64,000 nucleotides of DNA from NCBI RefSeq assembly GCF_014696435.1, contig NZ_JACJQG010000050.1, positions 1 through 64,000 of the forward strand, given 5' to 3'. This DNA is from Calothrix anomala FACHB-343 (lineage in GTDB: Bacteria; Cyanobacteriota; Cyanobacteriia; Cyanobacteriales; Nostocaceae). A program made the position numbers and the translations under genes. Under the pieces are notes generated by a model. The model was given only the letters and a program-made list of their open reading frames with translations, was not told the DNA's origin and made no database searches. The stretch's first letter is position 1. Every line of letters starts with the position of its first letter. This document shows, one piece after another, positions 31,030 through 63,325 of the stretch.

Positions 31030-34000
31030 TTATTGCCACCATCGCCCTATATCCGCGATCGCACGCGCAACTTCTACCGTTGCCGCTTCACTACCCAATG
31101 CAAAGATAACTGGAAAGAGTTCCTTGATACTGGGTAACAAAATAGGGCGAGTATGCAGGGATAAATTATGAAGAGTATCTCGCCACAGGGGGAAAAGTTC
31201 CGTTGCTGATATTGGTGATAAACCTAATGCAGTCAGAATGGAAACGCGATACTGCACATTCTCAATCGCCTTAGCAGCTGTGATTGCTTCTGGTAGTAAT
31301 TCTGCTGGTAGTTGCTTGATTAATATACTCAAAATCTTAGCGCGATCGCGCTCATTCTGAATTTCTCTGGTAGTGGTGATTGCTTCTGGTAACAATTCTG
31401 GTAGTTGCTCGGCTAATGCAATCATAACTGGGGCGCGATCGCTTTCATATTCAATTGCTCTAGCGGCGGTGAGTACTTGTGGTAAGAACTCTGGCGGTAG
31501 TTTCTTGACTAATGTCGCTAAAACTTCGGCGCGATAATGCTCAGAGTCAATCGCCATAGTTGTATTGAATACTTCTGGTAATAATTCTGTTGGTAGTTTC
31601 TCGGTTAATGCAATTAAAACTTGGGTGCGATATTCCTCATTCTCAATTACTGTAGCGGCGGTGAGTGCTTCTTTTAACAATTCTGCTGGTAGTTTCTCGG
31701 CTAATGTTACCAAAATTTCGGCGCGTAAGTCTTCATAATCGTCAATCGCCTGAGCTGCGGTGAGTGCTTCTGACATACAATCTGGTAGTCGTTCTCCTAA
31801 TACCATCAAGGCTTGAGCTTGAAAATACTTGATTTCCAGTTCTCTAGCCACAGTGAGAGCTTCGGGTAATAATTCTGGTGGTAAACTTGGGACTAATGCA
31901 CTCAAGACTTCGGCACGATCATACTCATCCTCAATTGCCTTAACGCTGGACAGTGCTTCTGGTAATAATTCTGGTAGTTTTTCGGCTAATATCTGCATAC
32001 CTTTGGCGCGATCGCGCTCATTCTCAATTCCCCTCGCGACAGCAAGCGCTTCTGGTATACAATCAGGTAGTTTTTGCATTAATGCACTCAAAATTTGAAC
32101 GCGAGAATAATCATTTTGAATTGCTCTAGCAATGGTGAGTGCTTCTTTTAACAACTCTGGTGGGAGTTTTTCGGCTAATGCAATCAGCACTTGGGCGCGA
32201 TATTGTTCGTCTTCAATTGCTTGTAAAATTGAGATTGCTTCTGGTAATGACTGTGCTGGGAGTTTTGCGGCTAAATTTTTGAGAACTAGAGTGCGATCGC
32301 TTTCATACTGAATCGCCCTCGTTAGTTTCAATGCTTCTAGTAACAAATCTGGCGATACTTTCTCTGTGAATACACTTGTAGCTTGGGCGCGATACTGTTC
32401 ATCATCAATTGCTTTTAAAGCTGAGAGTGCTTTTGGTAACAACTCTGCTGGCATTTTTTCCGTTAATGCACTGAGGAAAGGAGCGCGCTCGCTTTCATAA
32501 TGAATCGTCTTCGCCACAGTTAGCGCTTCTAGCAGTAATTCTGGTTGCTTGTCAGCTAATTTACTCAGAACTTTAATGCGACAGTTTTTATCTTCAATTG
32601 CTCTAGCGGCTGAGAGTGCTTTTGGTAACAACTCTGGTGATAGATGCTCGGCTAATGCTATCAAGAGTGAGGCGCGAGAATATTCATCCTGAGCCATAGC
32701 CATAGTCAGAGCTTCTGATAACAAATCTGGTGTGAGTTTGTCGGCTAATGCAATCAAGACTTCGGCATAATACCACTCAATATCCATTGACTTGACGGCG
32801 GAGAGTGCTTCTGGCAATAAATCTAGTGGTAGTTTTTCGGCTAATATTCTCAAGGCTTCAGCACGATATTTATCATCCTTAATTTCCCTAGCAGAGGTGA
32901 CTGCTTTCAGGTACAAATCTGCTGGTAGTTTCTCGGCTAATGCTATCAAGGTAGAAACGCGATACCTTTCTTCTTCAATTGCTATCCAGATAGCGATCGC
33001 TTTTGGTGATAAAAATGATGGTATTCCAGAGTGAGGTCTGTTAATTAAGGGTATAGAGGTATAATATATTTCTCGCTCCATTGCCATGAAGAGGGAGAGA
33101 GCTTCTGGTAATAACTCTGGTAATCTCTGAGATAAAGCTATCAGCGTACAGGCACGATATTGCTCATCCGTAATTACTCTAGCAGCATTGAGTAATTTCG
33201 GTAACAATTCTGGTGGTAGTTTATCGGCTAATGTTATCAAAACGGGAGCGAGACAACGCTCATCCGTAATTACTCTAGCAGCATTGAGTGCTTCTGGTAA
33301 CAATTCTGGTGGTAAATTATCGATTAATGTTATCAAACTAGAAGTGCAATCGCTTGCATAGTTAATCGTGTTCACCGCCGAAAGTACTTCTGGTAAGAAC
33401 TCTGGTGCTAAATGTGGATTCTCGGCTAATGCTATTAAAGCGTAAGTGCGATCGCTTTCATTCTCAATCGCTCTAGCGGCGGAAAAAGCTTGTGGTAGTA
33501 ACTCTGGGGTTAATTTTGGTGCTAATATTCTCAAAGCTGTCGCGCGATCGCGCTCATATTCAATCGACTTAGCAATTAACAGCGCTTCTGGTAACAATTT
33601 TGGTAGTTTCTCAGCGAATGCAATCAGCACTTCGACACGATATAACTCATACTTAATCGCCTTAGCAGATGAAAGTAATTCTGGCGATACTTCTTGTAGT
33701 TTTCCTGATAATGCTATCAGAAAATCAGCGTAATACTTCTCATCTTGAATCGCGTTAGTAATAGTAATTGCTTCAGATATAGCGATTTGCTCTAAATTTG
33801 CTGGCAGATAGTTAATTAATTCTGTAATCGCTGCTACTTTCTGTTTTAGTTCTGGTTTTTGCAAGGCGTAAGCTAATCCTTGCTCCGGAGTCCAGATTTT
33901 GTGTTTAACTAACCCTAGCAGCATTTTTGCAGGTAAATTAGCAGCCAAACTATTCAAAGAAGCTTTAATCAAAGCATAGCGACATTGCAAACTTACCACA

Positions 34001-35649
34001 TGAGACAGCGTTGATTCACTCCAATTCGCCTCAGCTAATTCCCAAGCGCGAGAAATATCGCGGATATAACCCCCCACTTGTCCAAGTTTTTCTTGTGCTG
34101 CATACCAGCCATTATTTCCTGTTACTGACTCTTCCCGGAATAAGGCGTGAATTTCTGCTATTTGTTGCGCTTTTTCTAAATGCCAAACTAAATTTTGATG
34201 AATGTAACCATCAGGAATTAAACTATGCCAAAAATTATTTTCTGTCTTTTCTTGATAACGTTTTAGTAGTTGGCTATGTGCATCAATTAAATCAATACCC
34301 ATCCCTGTAGGCGGAGATTGAGTTAAGCGACTACGAGCGACATCATGTAATAAGTCATGTAACCTATAAGCTTTAAATTTTACACCGCCAATAAATACAG
34401 GTGCATCAGATTGCAGTAAAGCATCATTCCACAGTAACTCTAAACATTCATTAGCTTCATCCTGAGATTTCATACCCCATAATGTCACCGCCATTGGTGC
34501 AGCTATGGTGACATCTTCTGGTAAAACGCCTAACCAAATAAAATTTTTCCAAGCTTCTTTATCATAGTCTTGCAAAGCTTTTAAACTTAAATTAAAAGTC
34601 GCTTCTAATGAATTTTCTTGACGCGGCCCGTATAATACTTTTAAATTAGCAACTTCTTGCTTTAAAGCTGTTTCTAACTTCTCCCATGTAATACCCCATT
34701 TAACTCTAGCGGCTATCAAATTCAGAGCAATTGGCAGATATCCTACAGTTTCAGCTACTCTTAAAGCCTCTGGTTTTTCTACTTCTGTAATTTCTCGTCC
34801 TAAAGATTTAGCAAGTAATTCTAGAGATTCTGCTGGCGTCATCAAATTTAATTCTTGCAAATGAGCGCCCACAGTATTAGCCACATCAGCACGCCGGGAA
34901 GTAATTAATAATTGAGATTGGGAACCCGCTACCATAAAGGGTTTAACTTTCTCTGGTTCCCAAGCATCATCTACTACTAATAAAACAGCTTTATTATGTA
35001 ATAAACTGCGTAAATGGGCTGAGGTTCCTTCTATATTCACAGCACGAAATTCATAGTCGCCTAAAGCTTGTACCCAGCTACTAAGTAGAGCGAGAATATC
35101 TGGTTCTTGTCCTAAAGTTGCCCAAAGTACGCCACCTGAAAAACGTTTTTGAATATCATCATCGTGCGCAATAGCTGTAATTAAAGTTGTTTTACCTATG
35201 CCACCTAAACCGTGAATGGCACTAATTAATAATGCACCATTATCAGATGTATTTGCTAGTAACCGCGCTTTAATTTCTAAAGTAACTTGTGGACGATCGA
35301 CAAAACTAGCAGGTAAACTCGGAGCTTGAAAAGGCCTATCTATAGGGCGACGATAATTAATAGTTAAGCTACCTTCTACCCGCCCAACAATAATATTATG
35401 ATCGCCTTGGACATTTTGCACAACGTTTTCGTTACCAGAAATTGTTTGTGCTGTATGAGCAACTTGAATAGGAATATGGGGAGTTAAATTAGTTGGACAA
35501 TGCTGATTTAAGTTGGGTTGAGTTACTTCATTCTTTAATATTTGTCGCTGATGTTTTAATCGGCGACGTTTACCTGTGAAAACGCCAGCCAACTTAGAGA
35601 AAAAAAGTAATACTCGCTTCCATAACCTTTTTAAGCTGCTTTGTGGCAC
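31030..35649 (-). CDS. NLR-like STAND ATPase: amyloid-type motif, NB-ARC, 27-repeat alpha-solenoid
   Basis: A 1539-aa protein. Residues 1-40 are basic and amphipathic. Residues 69-98 form a G/N-rich motif (TISG, NVVQNVQGD, IIVGRVEG, TIN) shared with the gene upstream. NB-ARC spans about 115-480: P-loop GLGGIGKTT (147-155), Walker B VLLVVDDAW (222-230), RNBS-B LLITSRR, GLPL-like GYLPIALNL, and MHD-like LHDLLHD. From about 620 to 1485 I count 27 tandem 31-32-residue units (LLPEAL, AIxxExxRAxxLxALAEKLP), a helical solenoid for ligand sensing. Such proteins oligomerise with ATP to trigger effectors, often in phage defence or regulated cell death. The likely effector is 35815-36264, 165 bp upstream on the same strand. 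Confidence 0.92.
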   Translation of the reverse strand: MPQSSLKRLWKRVLLFFSKLAGVFTGKRRRLKHQRQILKNEVTQPNLNQHCPTNLTPHIPIQVAHTAQTISGNENVVQNVQGDHNIIVGRVEGSLTINYRRPIDRPFQAPSLPASFVDRPQVTLEIKARLLANTSDNGALLISAIHGLGGIGKTTLITAIAHDDDIQKRFSGGVLWATLGQEPDILALLSSWVQALGDYEFRAVNIEGTSAHLRSLLHNKAVLLVVDDAWEPEKVKPFMVAGSQSQLLITSRRADVANTVGAHLQELNLMTPAESLELLAKSLGREITEVEKPEALRVAETVGYLPIALNLIAARVKWGITWEKLETALKQEVANLKVLYGPRQENSLEATFNLSLKALQDYDKEAWKNFIWLGVLPEDVTIAAPMAVTLWGMKSQDEANECLELLWNDALLQSDAPVFIGGVKFKAYRLHDLLHDVARSRLTQSPPTGMGIDLIDAHSQLLKRYQEKTENNFWHSLIPDGYIHQNLVWHLEKAQQIAEIHALFREESVTGNNGWYAAQEKLGQVGGYIRDISRAWELAEANWSESTLSHVVSLQCRYALIKASLNSLAANLPAKMLLGLVKHKIWTPEQGLAYALQKPELKQKVAAITELINYLPANLEQIAISEAITITNAIQDEKYYADFLIALSGKLQEVSPELLSSAKAIKYELYRVEVLIAFAEKLPKLLPEALLIAKSIEYERDRATALRILAPKLTPELLPQAFSAARAIENESDRTYALIALAENPHLAPEFLPEVLSAVNTINYASDCTSSLITLIDNLPPELLPEALNAARVITDERCLAPVLITLADKLPPELLPKLLNAARVITDEQYRACTLIALSQRLPELLPEALSLFMAMEREIYYTSIPLINRPHSGIPSFLSPKAIAIWIAIEEERYRVSTLIALAEKLPADLYLKAVTSAREIKDDKYRAEALRILAEKLPLDLLPEALSAVKSMDIEWYYAEVLIALADKLTPDLLSEALTMAMAQDEYSRASLLIALAEHLSPELLPKALSAARAIEDKNCRIKVLSKLADKQPELLLEALTVAKTIHYESERAPFLSALTEKMPAELLPKALSALKAIDDEQYRAQATSVFTEKVSPDLLLEALKLTRAIQYESDRTLVLKNLAAKLPAQSLPEAISILQAIEDEQYRAQVLIALAEKLPPELLKEALTIARAIQNDYSRVQILSALMQKLPDCIPEALAVARGIENERDRAKGMQILAEKLPELLPEALSSVKAIEDEYDRAEVLSALVPSLPPELLPEALTVARELEIKYFQAQALMVLGERLPDCMSEALTAAQAIDDYEDLRAEILVTLAEKLPAELLKEALTAATVIENEEYRTQVLIALTEKLPTELLPEVFNTTMAIDSEHYRAEVLATLVKKLPPEFLPQVLTAARAIEYESDRAPVMIALAEQLPELLPEAITTTREIQNERDRAKILSILIKQLPAELLPEAITAAKAIENVQYRVSILTALGLSPISATELFPLWRDTLHNLSLHTRPILLPSIKELFPVIFALGSEAATVEVARAIADIGRWWQ

Positions 35650-35673
35650 TGTTTTAACTTCCTATATTTTAAT

Positions 35674-35789
35674 ACGGTTCAGTTAAAGTAAAATGCTGTT
35701 ATAAAGGTCATTTTTTTTAATGAACCGCCAAGACGCCAAGGACGCAGAGAGAAGAAAAAATCGAAGAAATTAATGCTTAACTGAACTGT
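35674..35789. repeat. 116-bp MITE-like element between effector and NLR genes
   Basis: The ends ACGGTTCAGTTAA (35674-35686) and TTAACTGAACTGT (35777-35789) are inverted with one mismatch. The interior carries GAACCGCCAAGACGCCAAGG, a text common in intergenic DNA of Nostocales. It separates the two genes of the module. Confidence 0.75.
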
Positions 35790-35814
35790 ATTTTTCTATA
35801 TTATGGCTGCTTTA

Positions 35815-36264
35815 CTAGTTAATAGTTGCATTACCTCCCACAGTACCAATTACTTTATTACCATCACCAGCAGTATTTTGAACTGAGTTATTATCACCAG
35901 AAATTGTTGTATTAAAGTTATTTACAACTTGAGCAATTGCTTCTGTATCTTCTTGCATTAATTTGGTAATTTCTGCCGCTAAATTTTTATCTTCATCAAT
36001 TAATTTTTTGAGTTGTTTTTGCAGCGTTTCTTTCGCATCTGCATCATCAGGCGAACTAGCTAATTCTTCGGCTGCACCTTTAGCCATTGGCTTGGCTTCT
36101 ACTTTTGGTTGCAGTTTACTCCACAAAGATTTCGCTTTTTCCCAGCTATTAGCACCCAAAGTTTCACCGAGTTTCTTAGCAGCTTCTTCTGCTGCTGTCT
36201 CTCCAGCTTTGAGCAAGTAGGGTAAAAATGGGGTGAGAAAAGTAGTTAAAGTTATTATATCCAT
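35815..36264 (-). CDS. Putative NLR-associated effector with C-terminal amyloid signalling motif
   Basis: A 149-aa protein. Residues 1-20 are hydrophobic (MDIITLTTFLTPFLPYLLKA), then a helical, alanine-rich region about 20-110 (WEKAKSLWSKLQ, DADAKETLQKQLKKLI, AAEITKLM). Residues 120-149 form a motif ending at the stop codon: TISGDNN-SVQN-TAGDGN-KVIG-TVGG-NATIN. It aligns without gaps to residues 69-98 of the downstream NLR, 17 of 30 identical. A helical domain with a hydrophobic first helix plus a C-terminal amyloid motif is the plan of HeLo/Bell-type membrane-active cell-death effectors; that assignment is my inference. The domain family itself I recognise only as frequent near cyanobacterial STAND genes. 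Confidence 0.8.
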   Translation of the reverse strand: MDIITLTTFLTPFLPYLLKAGETAAEEAAKKLGETLGANSWEKAKSLWSKLQPKVEAKPMAKGAAEELASSPDDADAKETLQKQLKKLIDEDKNLAAEITKLMQEDTEAIAQVVNNFNTTISGDNNSVQNTAGDGNKVIGTVGGNATIN

Positions 36265-36390: not shown

Positions 36391-37632
36391 TTAACCATTG
36401 ACTAACCCTAATACATGTGAGCCAAGCCCAATCAATCCACCTGCTAACACTAACCAAGCAGAATTGATTTTAAATCGAAAAACAGCGATCGCACTCGCAA
36501 TGGACACAATAATTGTCACCCAATCTATCAAGGCGGTTCTTCCTAAAGTATAGGTAACCCCCGCCATTAATCCCATTGAGGCTGCATTCACGCCATCGAG
36601 AAAGCCGCTAGCCCAAGGCGATTGACGCAATTTAGGTACCCAAGGGTTAACTACCAACACTAAAAGAAAAGCTGGTAAGAAGATACCAATTGTACCTGCG
36701 ATCGCTCCCGCATTTCCAGCTAACAAATAGCCAATAAATGTAGCAGTAGTAAATACAGGCCCCGGTGTAAACTGACCAATAGCTACCGCATCTAATAACT
36801 GTTGAGAGGTTAGCCAATGGTTGCGTTCTACTAAATCCCGTTGCAAAAATGCTAGTAATACGTAACCACTACCATACAACACACAGCCAATTTTCAGAAA
36901 GAACAGAAATACACTAGCCCAACTAACTGATGTGACTGCGGCTGTTGTCGTGCTTATTTGTGCGAAAATACCAGACAAAGGTAACAACCATGCACCGTTT
37001 GTTTGGCTTTTTGTTTGCCAATTCTTCACGAGCATGACAATAACACCGAGAACAATTAGTAGCAAAATTTCATTCAAACCCGCAAAGTAACCTGCGATCG
37101 CGACTACTGCGGTAATTCTTGTCGGCCAGTCTTTTGCTGCTTTATTTCCTAGATTCCACAAGGCTTGCAGCACTATGGCAATAATTACAGGCTTGATACC
37201 ATACAGCAACCATCCTACCTGAGGAACAGTCTGATAGCGAGTATAAATTGCTGCTAACGTCCAAACGATGAGCATAGCAGGTAAAATAAAGCAGCTACCT
37301 GCAATTAGTAAACCACGCCATCCACCGCGCTCATAACCAATGTGAATTGCTAATTCTGTAGAGTTCGGCCCGGGAATCAAATTCGTAATCCCCAGTAAAT
37401 CTAACAGTTTCTCCCGACTCATCCAACGATGGCGGTTTACCACCTCATTATCCATCATAGCGATGTGGGCAGCCGGGCCGCCAAATGCGATCGCACCCAG
37501 GCGCAAAAATATAGTTGCTAATTCCGTTAATCGCTGCTTTTGTTCTCTGGGAGTCAAAGCGTTATAGGAAACCGCTTCCGGCTCTTTCTCGATACCCTCA
37601 GCTTCCGGCGTCACTATAGTTTTCCTAATCAT
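36391..37632 (-). CDS. chrA: Chromate transporter, long-chain ChrA family
   Basis: A 413-aa polytopic membrane protein built of two homologous halves, as in long-chain CHR transporters. The N-half has FLRLGAIAFGGPAAHIAMM and GITNLIPGPNSTELAIHIGY; the C-half has FLKIGCVLYGSGYVLLAFLQRD and AIGQFTPGPVFTTATFIGYL. ChrA exports chromate from the cytoplasm, energised by the membrane potential; the cyanobacterial members may also carry other oxyanions. About 10-12 helices. The first 40 residues are polar and acidic. No chrB-type regulator is adjacent. Confidence 0.92.
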   Translation of the reverse strand: MIRKTIVTPEAEGIEKEPEAVSYNALTPREQKQRLTELATIFLRLGAIAFGGPAAHIAMMDNEVVNRHRWMSREKLLDLLGITNLIPGPNSTELAIHIGYERGGWRGLLIAGSCFILPAMLIVWTLAAIYTRYQTVPQVGWLLYGIKPVIIAIVLQALWNLGNKAAKDWPTRITAVVAIAGYFAGLNEILLLIVLGVIVMLVKNWQTKSQTNGAWLLPLSGIFAQISTTTAAVTSVSWASVFLFFLKIGCVLYGSGYVLLAFLQRDLVERNHWLTSQQLLDAVAIGQFTPGPVFTTATFIGYLLAGNAGAIAGTIGIFLPAFLLVLVVNPWVPKLRQSPWASGFLDGVNAASMGLMAGVTYTLGRTALIDWVTIIVSIASAIAVFRFKINSAWLVLAGGLIGLGSHVLGLVNG

Positions 37633-55621: not shown

Positions 55622-58600
55622 ATGGCTAATACACCATTCGATACAAATCAGCCTGCACAGGTAAAGGGTTTAGGCGGTTATACTGTTAACCCTATATTTA
55701 CTGTGGGTGAAAAAATAGATGATTATGCGCCACCGGGAATTCTCGATGGTACAGGTGCTTTTAAACTCAATGACACCACTGTGAGATTGTTAGTTAACCA
55801 CGAAATAGCTAACAATGTCGGCTATAATTACACCCTCAAAAGTGGGGCTTCTCTTCCTGGTGCTAGAATTAGCTATTTTGATATTGATAAGCGTACTTTA
55901 AAAATAGTTGATTCTGGTTTAGCTTTTGACACAATTTACAACCGCGCTGGTGAAGTTGTCGATGCGGCTTCTGACTTAGAATTTGCTGGACTTAATCGTT
56001 TTTGTTCGGCAAATTTGATGGAAGCTAACCACTTTGGCGCGGGGATTGGATTTAGCGATCGCATTTATTTTACAGGCGAAGAAACCGATGGTGGTACACA
56101 GTTTGCCCTAGATACTACCACTAATCAACTCTGGGCTGTACCTTGGATGGGTCGTGCTGCTTGGGAAAGTGTGACTGAGATTAACACAGGTAGCACTGAT
56201 AAAGTAGCTTTATTAATCGGTGACGATCGCGGCCCAGCTCCTTTAATTTTATATGTTGGTGACAAAAACGCTAAGGGTGACGGTAGTTTCCTCGATCGCA
56301 ATGGCTTGGCGCAAGGAAAGCTTTACGTTTGGGTAGCTGACGATCCCACAGATAACTCTGATTCTATTGAACTAGATGCTAGAGATTTCCAAGGTAGTGG
56401 TAACAGTCGCGCTGGTAAGTTTGTCGAGATTCAGCACTATCGCCCTGACTTAGCCGGTACAGCTGTAGATGGTACAGATGCCGATACTAGCATTCAAAAT
56501 GAATTGGGTTATGATGCCCAAGGTTTTGCTACCCAAGCCCAACAAGATGCTTTAGCTAATGAAGTTAAAGCTTTCTTGTTCTCTCGTCCTGAAGATGTCG
56601 CCACCAACCCAGCAGATGGTACACAAGCTGTATTAGCTTCTACTGGTCGCACCGGTTTGTTTGATAATGCTGATACCTGGGGTACAACTTACAAAATTGA
56701 TGTTGATTTCAGCAGCAATCAAATCACAGCTAGCCTCAACATTCTCTACGACGGTAATGACGAGGGTAACAAAGATTTTGGGTTACGCAGCCCTGATAAC
56801 CTAGATTGGGCTGATGATGGTAAAATCTATATTCAAGAAGACCGCGCCATCGGTGCTGACCTGTTTGGTGCTACCTCTAAAGAAGAAGCTTCTATCTGGC
56901 GCATCGATCCCAGCGCTACTAACCCAGAAACCACAGCAACCCGCATAGCACAAATCGATCGCACGGCTGTACCCTCCGGTCAAACTGACTCTAGCCCTAC
57001 AGATCTAGGTAACTGGGAATCTTCTGGTATCCTCGATGTTTCCCAGCTGTTTGACTACGATCCCGGCGAACTGCTACTGTTTAATGTCCAAGCACACAGC
57101 ATTCGGGATGGCTCAATTATTACTGTTCCTGGTATTGATACCGATGGCGATGGGACTGTTGAACGCACAGATAACTTAGTAGAAGGTGGTCAACTCGGTT
57201 TCCTGATTGCGCCGAATGCTGTTCCTAAAGTTGAGTTAGTTGGCTTTGCTTCTCTTCCGGCTGATACCTATGGTGAGGGGCCTGCATCTGGTGAAGGAAT
57301 TTCCGCCAATGGTAGAACCGGGCCTTTCCCCGGACAACCAATACAAGGTTTCAGTGGTGTCCAATTTGCTAACAGTAATTCTTTCTATTTCCTCTCAGAT
57401 AATGGTTACGGTAGCAAAAATAATAGTGCTGATTTTCTGCTACGTATCCAACGTTTAGATCCCAATTTCAAGGGAACAGAAAATGGTGATGGTACTGTCA
57501 AAGTTTTAGACTATATTCAACTATCTGACCCAGATAAAAAGGTTCCTTTCAAAATTACTAATGAAGGAACTAGTGAAAGATTCCTCACCGGTGCAGACTT
57601 TGATGTTGAATCTTTAATTGTTGATAAAGACGGTAGCTTCTGGATTGGGGATGAGTTTGGCCCCTATCTGTTACATTTCGATCGCACTGGTAAATTATTA
57701 GAAGCTCCCATCGCCACACCAGACGAATTCAAGACTTTAGACGGTAAAGCACCGAAAGTTCTTGGTCATAGAGGTGCAAGCGGCTTTCGTCCAGAGCATA
57801 CCATCGAAGCTTATAAACTAGCAATTGAGCAAGGTGCAGATTTTATTGAGCCTGACTTGGTAGTTACCAAAGATGGTGTATTGATTGCTCGTCATGAACC
57901 TGCTTTAGCGATTTTAAATGCTGATGGCAGTTTAAATACTAGCAATACAACCACAAATGTAGCTGAGATTGCCAAATTTAGCGATCGCAAAAAAACAGTC
58001 AATTTGGACGGAACCACAGTTACAGGATGGTTTGCTGAAGATTTCACCTTAGCGGAAATCAAAGAACTACGCGCCATTGAACGTTTATCTTTCCGCGATC
58101 AATCCTACAACGGTCAATTTGAAATTCCGACTTTAACGGAAATCATTGATTTAGTTAAGGATGTGGAAGCGCAGACAGGTAAAAAGATTGGTATCTACCC
58201 AGAAACCAAGCATCCCACCTATACTGCTAGCGAAGCTACTTATGTAGGGACTGACACCAAGATTAACCGCAGTTTGGGTCAGATACTCATCGATACCCTC
58301 AAAGCTGAAAACTTCACCGATCCTAGTCGCATTTTCATCCAATCCTTTGAAGTCGGGAACCTGAAGGAACTGCATGATATCATCATGCCTGCTGCTGGTG
58401 TAGATATCCCACTGGTACAACTTTTTGATGCTGATGGCATTGACATTAACGGTAAACTGATTGAAAATCAGCCATACGATTTCCAAGTTAGTGGTGACGA
58501 ACGCACCTATGGCGATTTACGCACCCCAGAAGGTTTGGCGGAAATTGCTAAATATGCTGATGGTATTGGCCCTTGGAAACGCATGATTGTCAGTGTCAAA

Positions 58601-60307
58601 GGAACTGATGCTAATAATGATGGTAAAGCAGATGATGTGAATCAGGATGGTACAGTTAATGATGCTGACAGAACAACTTTACCACCGACAACCTTAATCC
58701 AAGATGCTCATGCAGCAGGTTTACAGGTTCACCCCTACACCTTCCGTGATGAAGATTTATACCTCGCAGCCGATTACAAAGGTAATCCAGAACTAGAGTT
58801 TCAGCAGTTCATTCAATTGGGTGTTGATGCATTCTTTACAGACTTCCCAATTACAGGAGATAAAGTCAGAGATTTACTGAGCGAACCTGAGAATAATTTG
58901 GTACGTTCTCCCCAAAACCCTGATGTGCTTGCTGGTAAAGCATTTGCGAACTTAGGCGGCTCGAAAGGCTTTGAAGGCGGGACAATCAACGCCAGCAAAA
59001 CCAAGCTGTATATGCTGTTGGAAGGTACAGTTAATGGCGATCGCCCTGGTGATTTACGGATTAATGAATTTGACATTGCTAATCGTGAATACACTGACAA
59101 GAAGCTGTACTACAAACTAGATAATCCCGCAAATGCGATCGGCGATTTCACCGTTGTGAATGACAATGAATACCTGGTTGTTGAAAGAGATGGCGGTCAA
59201 GGAGCCACAGCTAAATTCAAGCGCGTCTATAAAGTAGACTTGTCAAAGACTGATGCTAAAGGCTATGTGGAAAAGATAGAAATTGCCGATTTGTTGAATA
59301 TCCAAGACCCCAATGACTTAAATGGTGATGGTAAGACAACTTTTGATTTCCCCTTTGTCACCATTGAAAATGTCTTAGTGATTGACAAAGATACCATTTT
59401 GGTAGCTAACGACAACAACTATCCTTTCTCCACCGGTCGTCCAGGGAACGATCCGCAAAATCCCCAAATCGACAACAACGAAATTCTGCTGCTGAAGTTA
59501 GAGAAACCCCTAAACCTTGCGCCTGGTGTCGGTCAACCCTCAGCACTAGATATCAATTTTGGTTCTACTTCCAGCGATGATATTACCACTCAGCCAAATC
59601 AAACCGTATTTACAGGCGATGGCGCAGATACGGTAGATGCTAACAAAGGTAATACAGTGCAGACCGGTAAGGGTGATGACACTGTATTAGCGGGTAGTGA
59701 CTCTGCTGTGGCGACTGGCGAGGGTAGCGATCAAGTGGTAATTGGTGCTAATGGTTCTGTTAGCAATACTAATGTTGATGCTGGCGCAGGTAACGATGAA
59801 ATCACCGTAGTTGAAGCAAGTGGTAGTAATAACCTGTTTGGTGGTGCAGGTTCTGATACTTTGCAAGTAGTTGAAGGTTCTCGTCAATTCTTGTTTGGTG
59901 GTTCCGGTAACGATACCATCACGAGTAACGGTAGCAACAACCGACTCTACGGTGGTTCCGGCGATGACAAACTCTTCTCCAACACCAATGACATCTTAGT
60001 GGGTGGTGATGGTGATGATGTGTTATTTGCTGCTTCTGGTGGTGGTAATCGCTTGACTGGTAGCGCTGGTGCTGACCAATTCTGGATTGCTAATGGTAGT
60101 CTTCCTACTAGCAAAAATATCGTCACTGACTTTACATCAGGAGTTGATGTAATTGGATTAGGTGGTATTGGAGTAACTCAGTTTAGTGACTTGACCCTCT
60201 TACAACAAGGTAGCGATACCTCAGTGAAAATTGGCAATACAGAGGTAGTTTCATTATTAGGAATTACCGCTAGCAGCCTAATTGATAATAATTTTGTTTT
60301 TGCATAG
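55622..60307 (+). CDS. Giant secreted PhoX/phytase-like/GDPD fusion with RTX-type C-terminus
   Basis: A 1561-aa protein. Residues 1 to about 525 are a DUF839/PhoX-like propeller ([24 protein letters not shown]). About 540-705 is the first half of an esterase-like phytase domain ([31 protein letters not shown]). About 710-1090 is a complete GDPD with H716 ([13 protein letters not shown]), E743/D745 and H758. About 1095-1285 is the second half of the phytase domain ([19 protein letters not shown]). About 1310-1530 holds RTX-like GGxGxD repeats ([36 protein letters not shown]). No signal peptide; RTX repeats imply type I secretion. It probably liberates phosphate from several organic phosphoesters outside the cell. 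Confidence 0.9.
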
Positions 60308-61165: not shown

Positions 61166-63325
61166 ATGAAAGGACGCTTTCACCCAAAAAACAATGTCAG
61201 TCTCAACCCCTCTGCTAACGAATCAATTCGTGATGTCATCGATAGGATGAGTGTCAGCCGTCGGCGCTTCCTCATCACAGCCGCCAGCACAGCCGCCTTA
61301 ACCGTCGTCGGCGATATATCTATTGGTGGCTTAATCCAAACCGTCGAAGCCTCGGACATTCGCAAAAGTAAAGGATTTGCTGGTATTGGTTTCAAGAGTA
61401 TTCCACCAAATCTGCGTGTCGGTGACAGGTTAAAAAATGATCTAGTCAGTGTTCCTGCTGGTTACACAGCTAAAGTACTCGTAGCTTGGGGAGATCCTAT
61501 CGCTTCTGGCGGCCCGACTTGGCTAGCTAATGCTTCCCAAGATGCAGCCGCACAGGAAAAACAGTTTGGGATGCACGCCGATGGTATGCACTACTTCCCC
61601 CTCTCTCCAGGAAACGTTGTAGGTCGTGCAGTCAGTTCACAAGCCAGATCCTTACGAGGCTTTATCAACCAACCAATTAATAATGGTTTGTTGTGTGTCA
61701 ACCATGAGTACACCCAAGAATCAATTCTCCATAGTGACGGTCTAGATCCAGTTTCAATTGCTAAGGTACGCAAGTCTCAGGCAGCGCATGGTGTATCGGT
61801 TGTAGAAATTTCTAAGCAAGGTAAGGAATGGAAATACAATCCCAATTCACCCTATGGTCGCCGTATCACAGCTAACACCGAAATGCGAATTTCTGGCCCT
61901 GCGGCTGGCGATCCACTTTTGAAATCGAAGAAGTTTGATATTAGACCTGATGGTTCTGTTGACACCGGCAGATTTAACGACGGTTACACCGCCTACGGCA
62001 CAGTTAACAACTGCGCCAACGGTTACACACCTTGGGGTACTTATTTAACCTGTGAAGAGAATTGGAATGGCTATTTCGGAAACAATGGAGAGGCGTTAGT
62101 TTCTACTCCCGGAATCCCAGACGCGGAGGTTCTTGCAGGACAGAATCGTTACGGTCTTTCCGCCTCTGGTGCTGGCTATAAATGGCATCAAGCCGATCCA
62201 CGTTTCAACAACCGCACTAACCCCCTCGAATCCCATTCATTTGGCTGGGTAGTAGAAATTGATCCTTACGATCCACAAAGCAAACCAGTTAAGCGTACTG
62301 CCTTGGGTAGATTCAAGCATGAAAGCGCTCAGGTTGTGGTCGATGACAGAAATAATGTGGCTTTTTATATGGGAGACGACGAACGCAACGAATATATCTA
62401 TAAGTTCGTTTGTTCCCAGCGTTTGAATCCGGGAAATCGTAATGCTAACCGCGATTTACTTGACAATGGGGTGTTATACGTTGCCAAGTTTAACGATAAC
62501 GGTACTGGCCAATGGATTCCTTTAGTGCATGGTCAAAGAGGTCTGACAGCCGAAAATGGTTTTAAAAACCAAGCTGAAGTCCTGGTCAAGACTCGTCAGG
62601 CGGCGGATCGGGTTGGTGCAACCATGATGGATAGACCAGAATGGACAGCAGTACGTCCTCGCATTGGCGGTTATAAAGAGATTGAAGTTTACTGCACATT
62701 GACCAACAATAACCGTCGGGGTACAACTCCAGTCTCCATCAACAATGCCGATGGTTCAACAGGAGCAGGTAGTGCGCGTCCTCCTGTAAATGCAGCTAAC
62801 CCCCGTCCTGACAACCGTTTTGGTCACATCATTCGTTGGCGTGAAGATGGACGCACCGTCACAACAACAACTTTTACATGGGATATTTTCTTAGAAGCTG
62901 GTGATAAAACTCGGACAGAATCAAATCTTCAAGGAAATATTAAAGGCGATGACTTAAGTTCGCCAGATGGTTTGTGGTTTGATGACTTCGGTCGCTTATG
63001 GATTCAGACCGACCACGCAGGTGATGGTACTGGTGATTTGGTAAATATTGGTAGCAATACGATGTCTTGTGCTGACCCCAACACCAAACAGGTTAGACGC
63101 TTCTTAACCAGTCCTACAGATTGTGAAGTCACAGGTATAACTACCACCCCTGACGGAAAAGCGATGTTTATTAATATTCAGCATCCAGGTGATAGCGGCG
63201 ATACCTTAAACCCCACCAAGACTAGTAATTGGCCGGCTAGTCAAGGTTATGGCCCATCCGGTCGCCCACGTTCTGCAACTGTGGTGATTACTCGCATTGA
63301 TGGTGGTGTGATTGGTGGACTGTAA
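61166..63325 (+). CDS. PhoX-family alkaline phosphatase (DUF839), Tat-exported
   Basis: A 719-aa protein. A long n-region is followed by a twin-arginine signal SRRRFLITAASTAALTVVGD (about residues 31-50), fitting export of a folded, cofactor-bearing enzyme. The PhoX domain fills the rest: LLCVNHEYTQE, TPWGTYLTCEENWNGYFG, GRFKHESAQVVVDDRNNVAF, SSPDGLWFDDFGRLWIQTD. PhoX enzymes are Ca/Fe-dependent phosphomonoesterases induced by phosphate starvation. Clean GGAGAA site 9 bp before ATG. It is the second PhoX-type gene in tandem with the giant fusion, though separated by a terminator and its own leader. Confidence 0.93.
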   Translation: MKGRFHPKNNVSLNPSANESIRDVIDRMSVSRRRFLITAASTAALTVVGDISIGGLIQTVEASDIRKSKGFAGIGFKSIPPNLRVGDRLKNDLVSVPAGYTAKVLVAWGDPIASGGPTWLANASQDAAAQEKQFGMHADGMHYFPLSPGNVVGRAVSSQARSLRGFINQPINNGLLCVNHEYTQESILHSDGLDPVSIAKVRKSQAAHGVSVVEISKQGKEWKYNPNSPYGRRITANTEMRISGPAAGDPLLKSKKFDIRPDGSVDTGRFNDGYTAYGTVNNCANGYTPWGTYLTCEENWNGYFGNNGEALVSTPGIPDAEVLAGQNRYGLSASGAGYKWHQADPRFNNRTNPLESHSFGWVVEIDPYDPQSKPVKRTALGRFKHESAQVVVDDRNNVAFYMGDDERNEYIYKFVCSQRLNPGNRNANRDLLDNGVLYVAKFNDNGTGQWIPLVHGQRGLTAENGFKNQAEVLVKTRQAADRVGATMMDRPEWTAVRPRIGGYKEIEVYCTLTNNNRRGTTPVSINNADGSTGAGSARPPVNAANPRPDNRFGHIIRWREDGRTVTTTTFTWDIFLEAGDKTRTESNLQGNIKGDDLSSPDGLWFDDFGRLWIQTDHAGDGTGDLVNIGSNTMSCADPNTKQVRRFLTSPTDCEVTGITTTPDGKAMFINIQHPGDSGDTLNPTKTSNWPASQGYGPSGRPRSATVVITRIDGGVIGGL

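Follow-up and report, generated by a model that had tools for sequence, protein, structure and literature searches.

A two-gene NLR/Bell-type locus of Calothrix anomala with a shared 30-residue amyloid-type motif

Among bacterial NLR systems, Dyrka et al. (2020) described the BASS1-10 motifs together with NLRs and effectors of the Bell-domain type (as relayed in extracts of PMC7889193, PMC8086366 and PMC9815663). In these extracts, Bell is predicted to be a small bundle of helices with a hydrophobic one among them, its gene neighbours that of an NLR and its C-terminus carries a motif shared with the NLR (PMC7889193, PMC8086366), the units are described from filamentous cyanobacteria (PMC7889193), and the BASS3 motif forms foci in a fungus while its proline mutants do not (PMC9815663). 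For fungi, extracts of the corresponding papers present HET-S/NWD2 as a receptor/effector pair with a shared motif (PMC4344463) and the repeat sensors of the HNWD NLRs as varying in length, their repeats being homogenised and diversifying selection acting at specific positions (PMC4986451, PMC12222747). We analysed a stretch of 64,000 nucleotides from Calothrix anomala FACHB-343 (contig NZ_JACJQG010000050.1, positions 1 to 64,000; hereafter the window), from a genome of 9.24 Mb, in which a first-pass annotation had proposed that an NLR-type receptor of 1539 aa and an adjacent protein of 149 aa form a prion-like signalling pair. This proposal is supported by the pairing of the motif copies, their co-variation by type, a proportion of nonsynonymous differences (pN) below that of synonymous ones (pS) and the exchange of modules; the motif, whose family the annotation had left open, falls into the Bell/BASS kind by the description of the published units. 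We estimate a probability of roughly 0.8 that the locus is a two-gene amyloid-type signalling unit of this kind, and it is a well-supported addition to a kind already known; we did not find its receptor leader, or the sensor that diversifies in its relatives, described for Bell/BASS in the literature searched. As far as the extracts go, the likeness lies in the adjacent genes, the short motif that ends a small hydrophobic-helix protein and recurs on the N-terminal side of the NLR, the cyanobacterial host and the presence of CHAT among other partners, whereas the receptor motif of the window differs in that a basic amphipathic leader precedes it and it starts only at residue 69 (median start over 37 matched pairs, residue 15).

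Both predicted open reading frames (ORFs) were recovered on the minus strand (Table 1), the small gene upstream and the NLR gene 165 bases downstream of it, with AGGAAG 8 nt upstream of the NLR start. The last 30 residues of the small protein, TISGDNNSVQNTAGDGNKVIGTVGGNATIN, align without gaps with NLR residues 69-98, TISGNENVVQNVQGDHNIIVGRVEGSLTIN, and the 17/30 identities reported by the annotation were found again. The Smith-Waterman score of this match (85) exceeds all composition-preserving shuffles, for which the maxima were 61 when the whole small protein was shuffled (n=1000), 52 when the motif was shuffled against the NLR (n=2000) and 54 for motif against motif (n=10,000), and the best ungapped 30-mer pair on other diagonals scores 32. 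A search of the Calothrix genome with the effector motif returned three matches, namely the two copies (E 8e-16 and 3e-4) and one at E 1.65. As annotated, the effector copy occupies the exact C-terminus (residues 120-149 of 149); the NLR copy does lie ahead of NB-ARC, 28 residues before the Pfam match, but the earlier placement needs refining in that the motif is internal and follows a 68-residue leader. A match due to chance, low complexity or functionless copying between neighbours would profit from the abundance of G, N, T and V in both segments, a bias that raises the scores of short matches, but we regard it as very improbable, since the shuffles never reach the observed score, the motif is kept in seven subfamily pairs (the window with L039, L040, L041, L100, L101 and L118) with pN<pS in both copies over four comparisons, and motif types differ between loci while matching within them.

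A motif profile built on the subfamily (A5) and searched in 291 genomes of the order gave eight strong matches (E<=1.4e-5) in 4/291 genomes, and every one of the four combines a match at the C-terminal end of a Bell-like protein with a second in the NLR next to it; six of the eight are profile members, and the two of genome G152 (L041) are not. Single weak matches (E 0.017-0.048) occur in six further genomes, at least that of G189 falling in another Bell homologue (L043). Unpaired occurrence had been named in advance as evidence contrary to the proposal, and the A5 search of the 291 genomes found no strong unpaired copy. The subfamily profile also aligns with the Q-x4-G[DN]xN-x2-IG motif class of other pairs (hhalign probability 88, E 3e-6), a link that is weak because the 14 members of this class were picked by eye. 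We added 28 named loci from a species genome collection, including Nostoc, Brasilonema, Oscillatoria sp. PCC 10802 and two Anaerolineae bins. Of the named loci, the five nearest to the window belong to Nostoc (3), Brasilonema and Oscillatoria, which are filamentous.

Pairs were then defined by adjacency alone, and 59 were kept from 89 loci (88 plus the window), the remainder being dropped for want of a small ORF passing the filter (14), as duplicates at >90% identity (12) or for want of a downstream ORF of 250 aa (4). In 34/59 pairs the C-terminus of the effector has a match within the neighbour's first 130 residues at <=1/500 shuffles, and in 37/59 at <=2/500; the summed own-pair score of 2903 lies above all 20,000 random re-pairings (mean 1665, maximum 2029). 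The co-variation of the two copies in homologous pairs, a check suggested by the first-pass annotation, is thus found across the 59 adjacent pairs, and it is a co-variation between motif types. The Calothrix genome itself contains exactly two Bell homologues by profile, the effector of the window and that of L050, which are 46% identical over residues 1-130 and score 23 over the last 40 residues. Their own pairs score 85 and 53, and exchanging the partners brings this down to 35 and 30, values attained by 73 and 55 of 1000 shuffles; with two pairs of unlike motifs in one genome, insulation between signalling lines is directly testable.

Comparisons of the window with L100, L039, L118 and L101 showed that both copies of the motif are under constraint, which is weaker in the effector copy than in the domain to which it is attached. 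The receptor motif has a pN of 0.08-0.24 and a pS of 0.44-0.51, next to a pN of 0.30-0.40 in the neighbouring linker and 0.05-0.10 in NB-ARC, and the effector motif has a pN of 0.15-0.18 and a pS of 0.46-0.55.

The motif also behaves as an exchangeable module. We scanned 18 neighbours and two Bell-bearing proteins (L046, L051) with Pfam, which recognised NB-ARC (6), nSTAND1 (5) and an inactive STAND (L060) among the neighbours, and a weak nSTAND3 below the Pfam cut-off in that of L064. The neighbours of L056 (1131-2567, minus strand) and L077 (5729-7675, plus strand) carry a matching N-terminal motif with TPR repeats only and no STAND NTPase in Pfam, and the motif is therefore not tied to NLRs. 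Three further motif-bearing neighbours, L066:3416-5080 (-), L069:3609-5276 (-) and L059:3264-5501 (-), of 554, 555 and 745 aa, gave no Pfam match at E<=0.01 and are possible undescribed receptor domains; those of L066 and L069 are near duplicates. In L078 (4975-8370, plus strand), a single ORF of 1131 aa joins Bell, one motif copy (by eye) and nSTAND1, and a protein of 378 aa in L046 (5251-6387, plus strand) joins a Bell-like domain, an amyloid-type motif (by eye) and CHAT. Note that the L078 ORF ends in a Peripla_BP_6-like region, a possible sensor, and so unites effector, motif and receptor in one chain. Conversely, in the 10 that were scanned of 26 NB-ARC relatives (L142-L167) found without a match over the motif, the place in front of NB-ARC is taken by EAD4 (3), CHAT (1), trypsin (1), PNP_UDP (1), HTH (1) or nothing recognised (3). 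The fusions, together with the relatives in which EAD4, CHAT, trypsin or PNP_UDP stands in its place, indicate that the motif is a signalling module, and an effector-recruiting tag predicts such fusions and swaps.

These swaps bear on a different explanation, in which the shared segment is a non-amyloid adaptor, that is, a short strand-forming tag that builds a finite NLR/partner complex in the manner of an effector-associated domain (EAD). The three relatives with EAD4 at the same place speak for such an adaptor, as does the fact that polymerisation of the motif is argued by analogy. However, the segment agrees with BASS motifs in length, position and pairing, and for these the extract cited above reports BASS3 foci that proline mutants do not form; a pseudo-repeat signal also runs over 37 effector C-termini, peaking at lags 4 (z 5.6) and 11 (z 4.5) and weaker at 9, 10 and 20, with z values inflated because the effector sequences are related. 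We consider the adaptor unlikely, and prefer the amyloid-type motif of the Bell/BASS kind. STAND NTPases with EAD adaptors and bacterial defence NLRs resemble the window receptor in their NB-ARC/nSTAND core, C-terminal sensor and exchangeable N-terminal module, and differ in that the module of the window is a 30-residue motif common to a separate effector. Likeness to RHIM, PP and BASS3 is an analogy of function only; the RHIM core was not visible in the motif when judged by eye without a profile search. Extracts of PMC8195603 contain nothing on amyloid motifs beyond a reference.

As far as its sequence shows, the small protein fits the published Bell description. The most hydrophobic 18-mer starts within the first 40 residues in 58/59 homologues, in agreement with the hydrophobic first helix of the annotation, and the hydrophobic N-terminal 18-mer of the window effector has a mean of 1.09; the remainder is probably helical, judging from its sequence, and may form a bundle. 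Profile searches of the Bell-like family against the PDB gave as candidates a chain at E 0.0041 (JUBO2), the best, and others that are mostly designed or coiled-coil proteins; these were rejected. It could be argued that the small protein, instead of killing, regulates the NLR as an inhibitor, a chaperone or an antitoxin-like partner and uses the motif to dock, all the more as it is encoded first and its toxicity is an inference. Against this, in the fusions the Bell-like domain precedes STAND and CHAT, where effectors usually sit, and the hydrophobic N-terminus is conserved; a regulator therefore seems to us more improbable still than the adaptor, and an effector of the Bell kind is retained.

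Several observations weigh against the assignment to a Bell/BASS signalling unit. Pfam, PADLOC, NCBIfam and PHROGs gave only weak matches for the small protein, under curated cut-offs or near chance, and the defence library offers no credible match (PADLOC: none for the NLR, E 0.009-0.04 for the small protein); among the 11 matches at E<=1 of a PDB profile search, no solved structure is credible as a relative of the Bell-like domain. The helical body of the effector evolves more slowly (pN 0.09-0.11) than its motif does. Moreover, 22/59 adjacent pairs miss the cut, among them L075, which is borderline, and L103, a close relative that matches further in (at residue 116, 0/500 shuffles, once 260 residues are read). 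In a clade of seven loci (L049, L057, L058, L121, L122, L123 and L126), the Bell gene stands beside an NLR without a detectable motif. Finally, the own partner is ranked first for 14/59 effectors and among the top three for 27/59, and within the subfamily, with its seven pairs, an own partner does not stand out by score and can be exchanged for another. Taken together, these rankings indicate that specificity is by motif type and not by pair, and pair-by-pair specificity inside the subfamily was rejected, as the scores carry no signal. As separate observations, the Bell proteins of the seven-locus clade have a similar tail, near STQINTAG..NPTYD, and the NLRs of L057, L058, L122 and L123 end in a Trp/Arg-rich stretch.

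By likeness to the tested BASS and fungal systems, the motif is most likely amyloid, and the following course is the most likely one. The NLR would sense a ligand, for which a phage protein or a non-self filament are candidates, through its array of 32-aa repeats, and would oligomerise through NB-ARC. Oligomerisation would cluster the 30-residue receptor motif, which would take a cross-beta fold and template the same motif type at the C-terminus of the Bell-like protein. The Bell domains thus gathered would attack the membrane with their hydrophobic N-terminal helix, and the cell would be killed or arrested, presumably in abortive infection or non-self rejection. In the subfamily, the basic amphipathic leader may in addition hold the NLR at the membrane, so that seeding would occur where the effector acts.

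This leader is found in six of the seven subfamily NLRs, which start with a basic amphipathic stretch of about M.KRSLRRLWKRIILFLSKLAGFLRGNRRRLKR; the NLR of L040 begins directly at the motif. Using D = 0.944 muH + 0.33 z, a strongly charge-driven index of hydrophobic moment (muH) and net charge (z) after HeliQuest, the best 18-mers of the six leaders reach 2.39-3.47. Values of D>2 occur in the first 60 residues of 7/59 NLRs versus 48/2950 internal stretches, and lowering the threshold to D>1.34 all but removes this enrichment (10/59 versus 382/2950). Because six of the seven NLRs with D>2 are mutual relatives, the leader is a trait of the subfamily and not an independent enrichment. Among 37 matched pairs the receptor motif starts at residue 44 or later in 9/37, six of these nine being of this subfamily. 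The leader may bind the membrane and seat the NLR where the effector acts, and nucleic-acid binding is a possible alternative role. An amphipathic leader before the receptor motif was not found described for amyloid-motif NLRs in the literature searched, with limited wording. If the leader does tether the seed at the membrane, this would be a new placing of an amyloid signalosome.

The second particular of the receptor is its sensor, which varies widely across the subfamily. Counted with a hidden Markov model (HMM) of three repeat units from the window NLR (bits >5), the array of period 32 aa comprises 25 copies in the window, 26 in L041, 23 in L100, 14 in L118, 11 in L101 and 4 each in L039 and L040. 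Five of the seven NLRs clearly keep the C-terminal cap; that of L118 has diverged yet still ends VARWWR, and the L100 ORF, which may be broken, stops without a cap. Mean within-protein repeat identity is 0.84 in L101, 0.81 in L039, 0.75 in L041, 0.69 in L040, 0.61 in L100, 0.52 in L118 and 0.48 in the window, with 0.55 between proteins. Arrays are thus homogenised in some relatives and old in others, that of the window being among the old. Within it, the stretch 33162-33337 (1.8 units of 96 bp) is read as a recent duplication because its copies are 90% identical, compared with 68% in another row of the array (31261-31725). The repeat array gave no match in the PDB at E<=0.1.

The most variable repeat positions are 21, 23, 24 and 27 in L041 and L101, and L100 and the window likewise vary most at two of these, 23 and 27. 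In held-out comparisons, positions chosen in L041 and measured in L101 gave a pN of 0.364 and a pS of 0.082 (0/500 random sets as extreme), versus 0.037 and 0.054 at the other positions, and positions chosen in L101 and measured in L041 gave 0.473 and 0.097 (0/500). Positions taken from the window and L100 (17, 23, 24 and 27) gave pN/pS of 0.368/0.091 in L041 (4/500) and 0.241/0.081 in L101 (34/500), and those from L041 and L101 gave 0.511/0.341 in L100 (2/500) and 0.511/0.512 in the window (30/500); at positions 21, 23, 24 and 27, L118 has 0.435/0.543 and L039, with its four repeats, 0.424/0.000. These counts within arrays are complicated by exchange between repeats. The pN>pS signal is strong in the two young arrays (L041 and L101) and moderate in L100, and it was not seen at the variable codons of the window's own array or of L118, where the high pS may be saturated. 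A bacterial NLR repeat sensor under positive selection was not found in the titles and abstract openings of the literature searched. About four positions per 32-aa repeat are a concrete prediction for the ligand-reading surface of bacterial amyloid NLRs.

These dynamics recall the fungal sensors. According to the extracts on HNWD (het-d, het-e), the likeness lies in the homogenised repeats and pN>pS codons of L041 and L101, features not shown by the window's own array, and in the copy number that varies across the subfamily, while the 32-aa repeats, probably helical and not WD40, are set apart by description; with HET-S/NWD2 the receptor/effector pair is common. It is possible, though we hold it doubtful, that one locus here combines a bacterial counterpart of the fungal allorecognition machine, with a membrane-tethered NLR, a repeat sensor diversifying by turnover and by positive selection at a few codons per repeat, and prion-like templating to a membrane-killing partner. 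The compact pair, with 30-residue tags and a 149-aa effector, suits tests of prion-like signalling in multicellular bacteria, some relatives being cultured.

Table 1. Features of the NLR/Bell-type locus in the window
Feature	Position	Strand	Basis
Small Bell-like effector gene, 149 aa	35815..36264	-	ORF; homologues in 60/291 genomes of the order (E<=0.01)
Hydrophobic N-terminal stretch, residues 1-20, MDIITLTTFLTPFLPYLLKA	36205..36264	-	P12, P15 and L17 invariant in 32 aligned homologues; putative membrane role
Effector body, residues 21-108, probably helical	35941..36204	-	G33, W48 and P72 invariant in the same homologues; helicity predicted from sequence
Effector-side motif, residues 120-149, exact C-terminus	35818..35907	-	Alignment, shuffles, profile
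NLR-type receptor gene, 1539 aa, GTG start	31030..35649	-	ORF and Pfam
Basic amphipathic N-terminal segment, residues 5-36, SLKRLWKRVLLFFSKLAGVFTGKRRRLKHQRQ	35542..35637	-	6/7 subfamily members; best 18-mer D=2.39, largely charge; putative membrane binding
Receptor-side motif, residues 69-98	35356..35445	-	Alignment, shuffles, profile
NB-ARC domain, residues 127-335	34645..35271	-	PF00931, E 3.5e-23
APAF-1 helical domain-like stretch, residues 455-504	34138..34287	-	22.6 bits (Pfam cut-off 22.8)
Array of ~25 repeats of 32 aa (96 bp), putative helical sensor	31225..33777	-	Repeat HMM
C-terminal cap behind the repeat array, residues 1478-1539	31033..31218	-	Conserved in 5/7 subfamily members
Dispersed-repeat core, intergenic	35722..35749	-	17-base part with 28 exact genome copies; reversed control 0

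The P-loop of the NLR is intact, at residue 147, and NB-ARC lies between the N-terminal module and the repeat sensor. In four of the other six subfamily pairs the coordinate difference between the genes is just 33, the full range being 33-196. A promoter and terminator scan of the locus was uninformative, and a plasmid search with the small protein matched 2/72,556 records, neither over more than 80% of the query. The gene directly upstream of the pair (36391-37632, minus strand) looks by eye as if it encoded a chromate-transporter-type membrane protein. Further along the window, a 1561-aa protein (55622-60307, plus strand) has matches to phytase-like, GDPD, PhoX and RTX, and together with a PhoX alkaline phosphatase (61166-63325, plus strand) it makes up a group of phosphate-scavenging neighbours.

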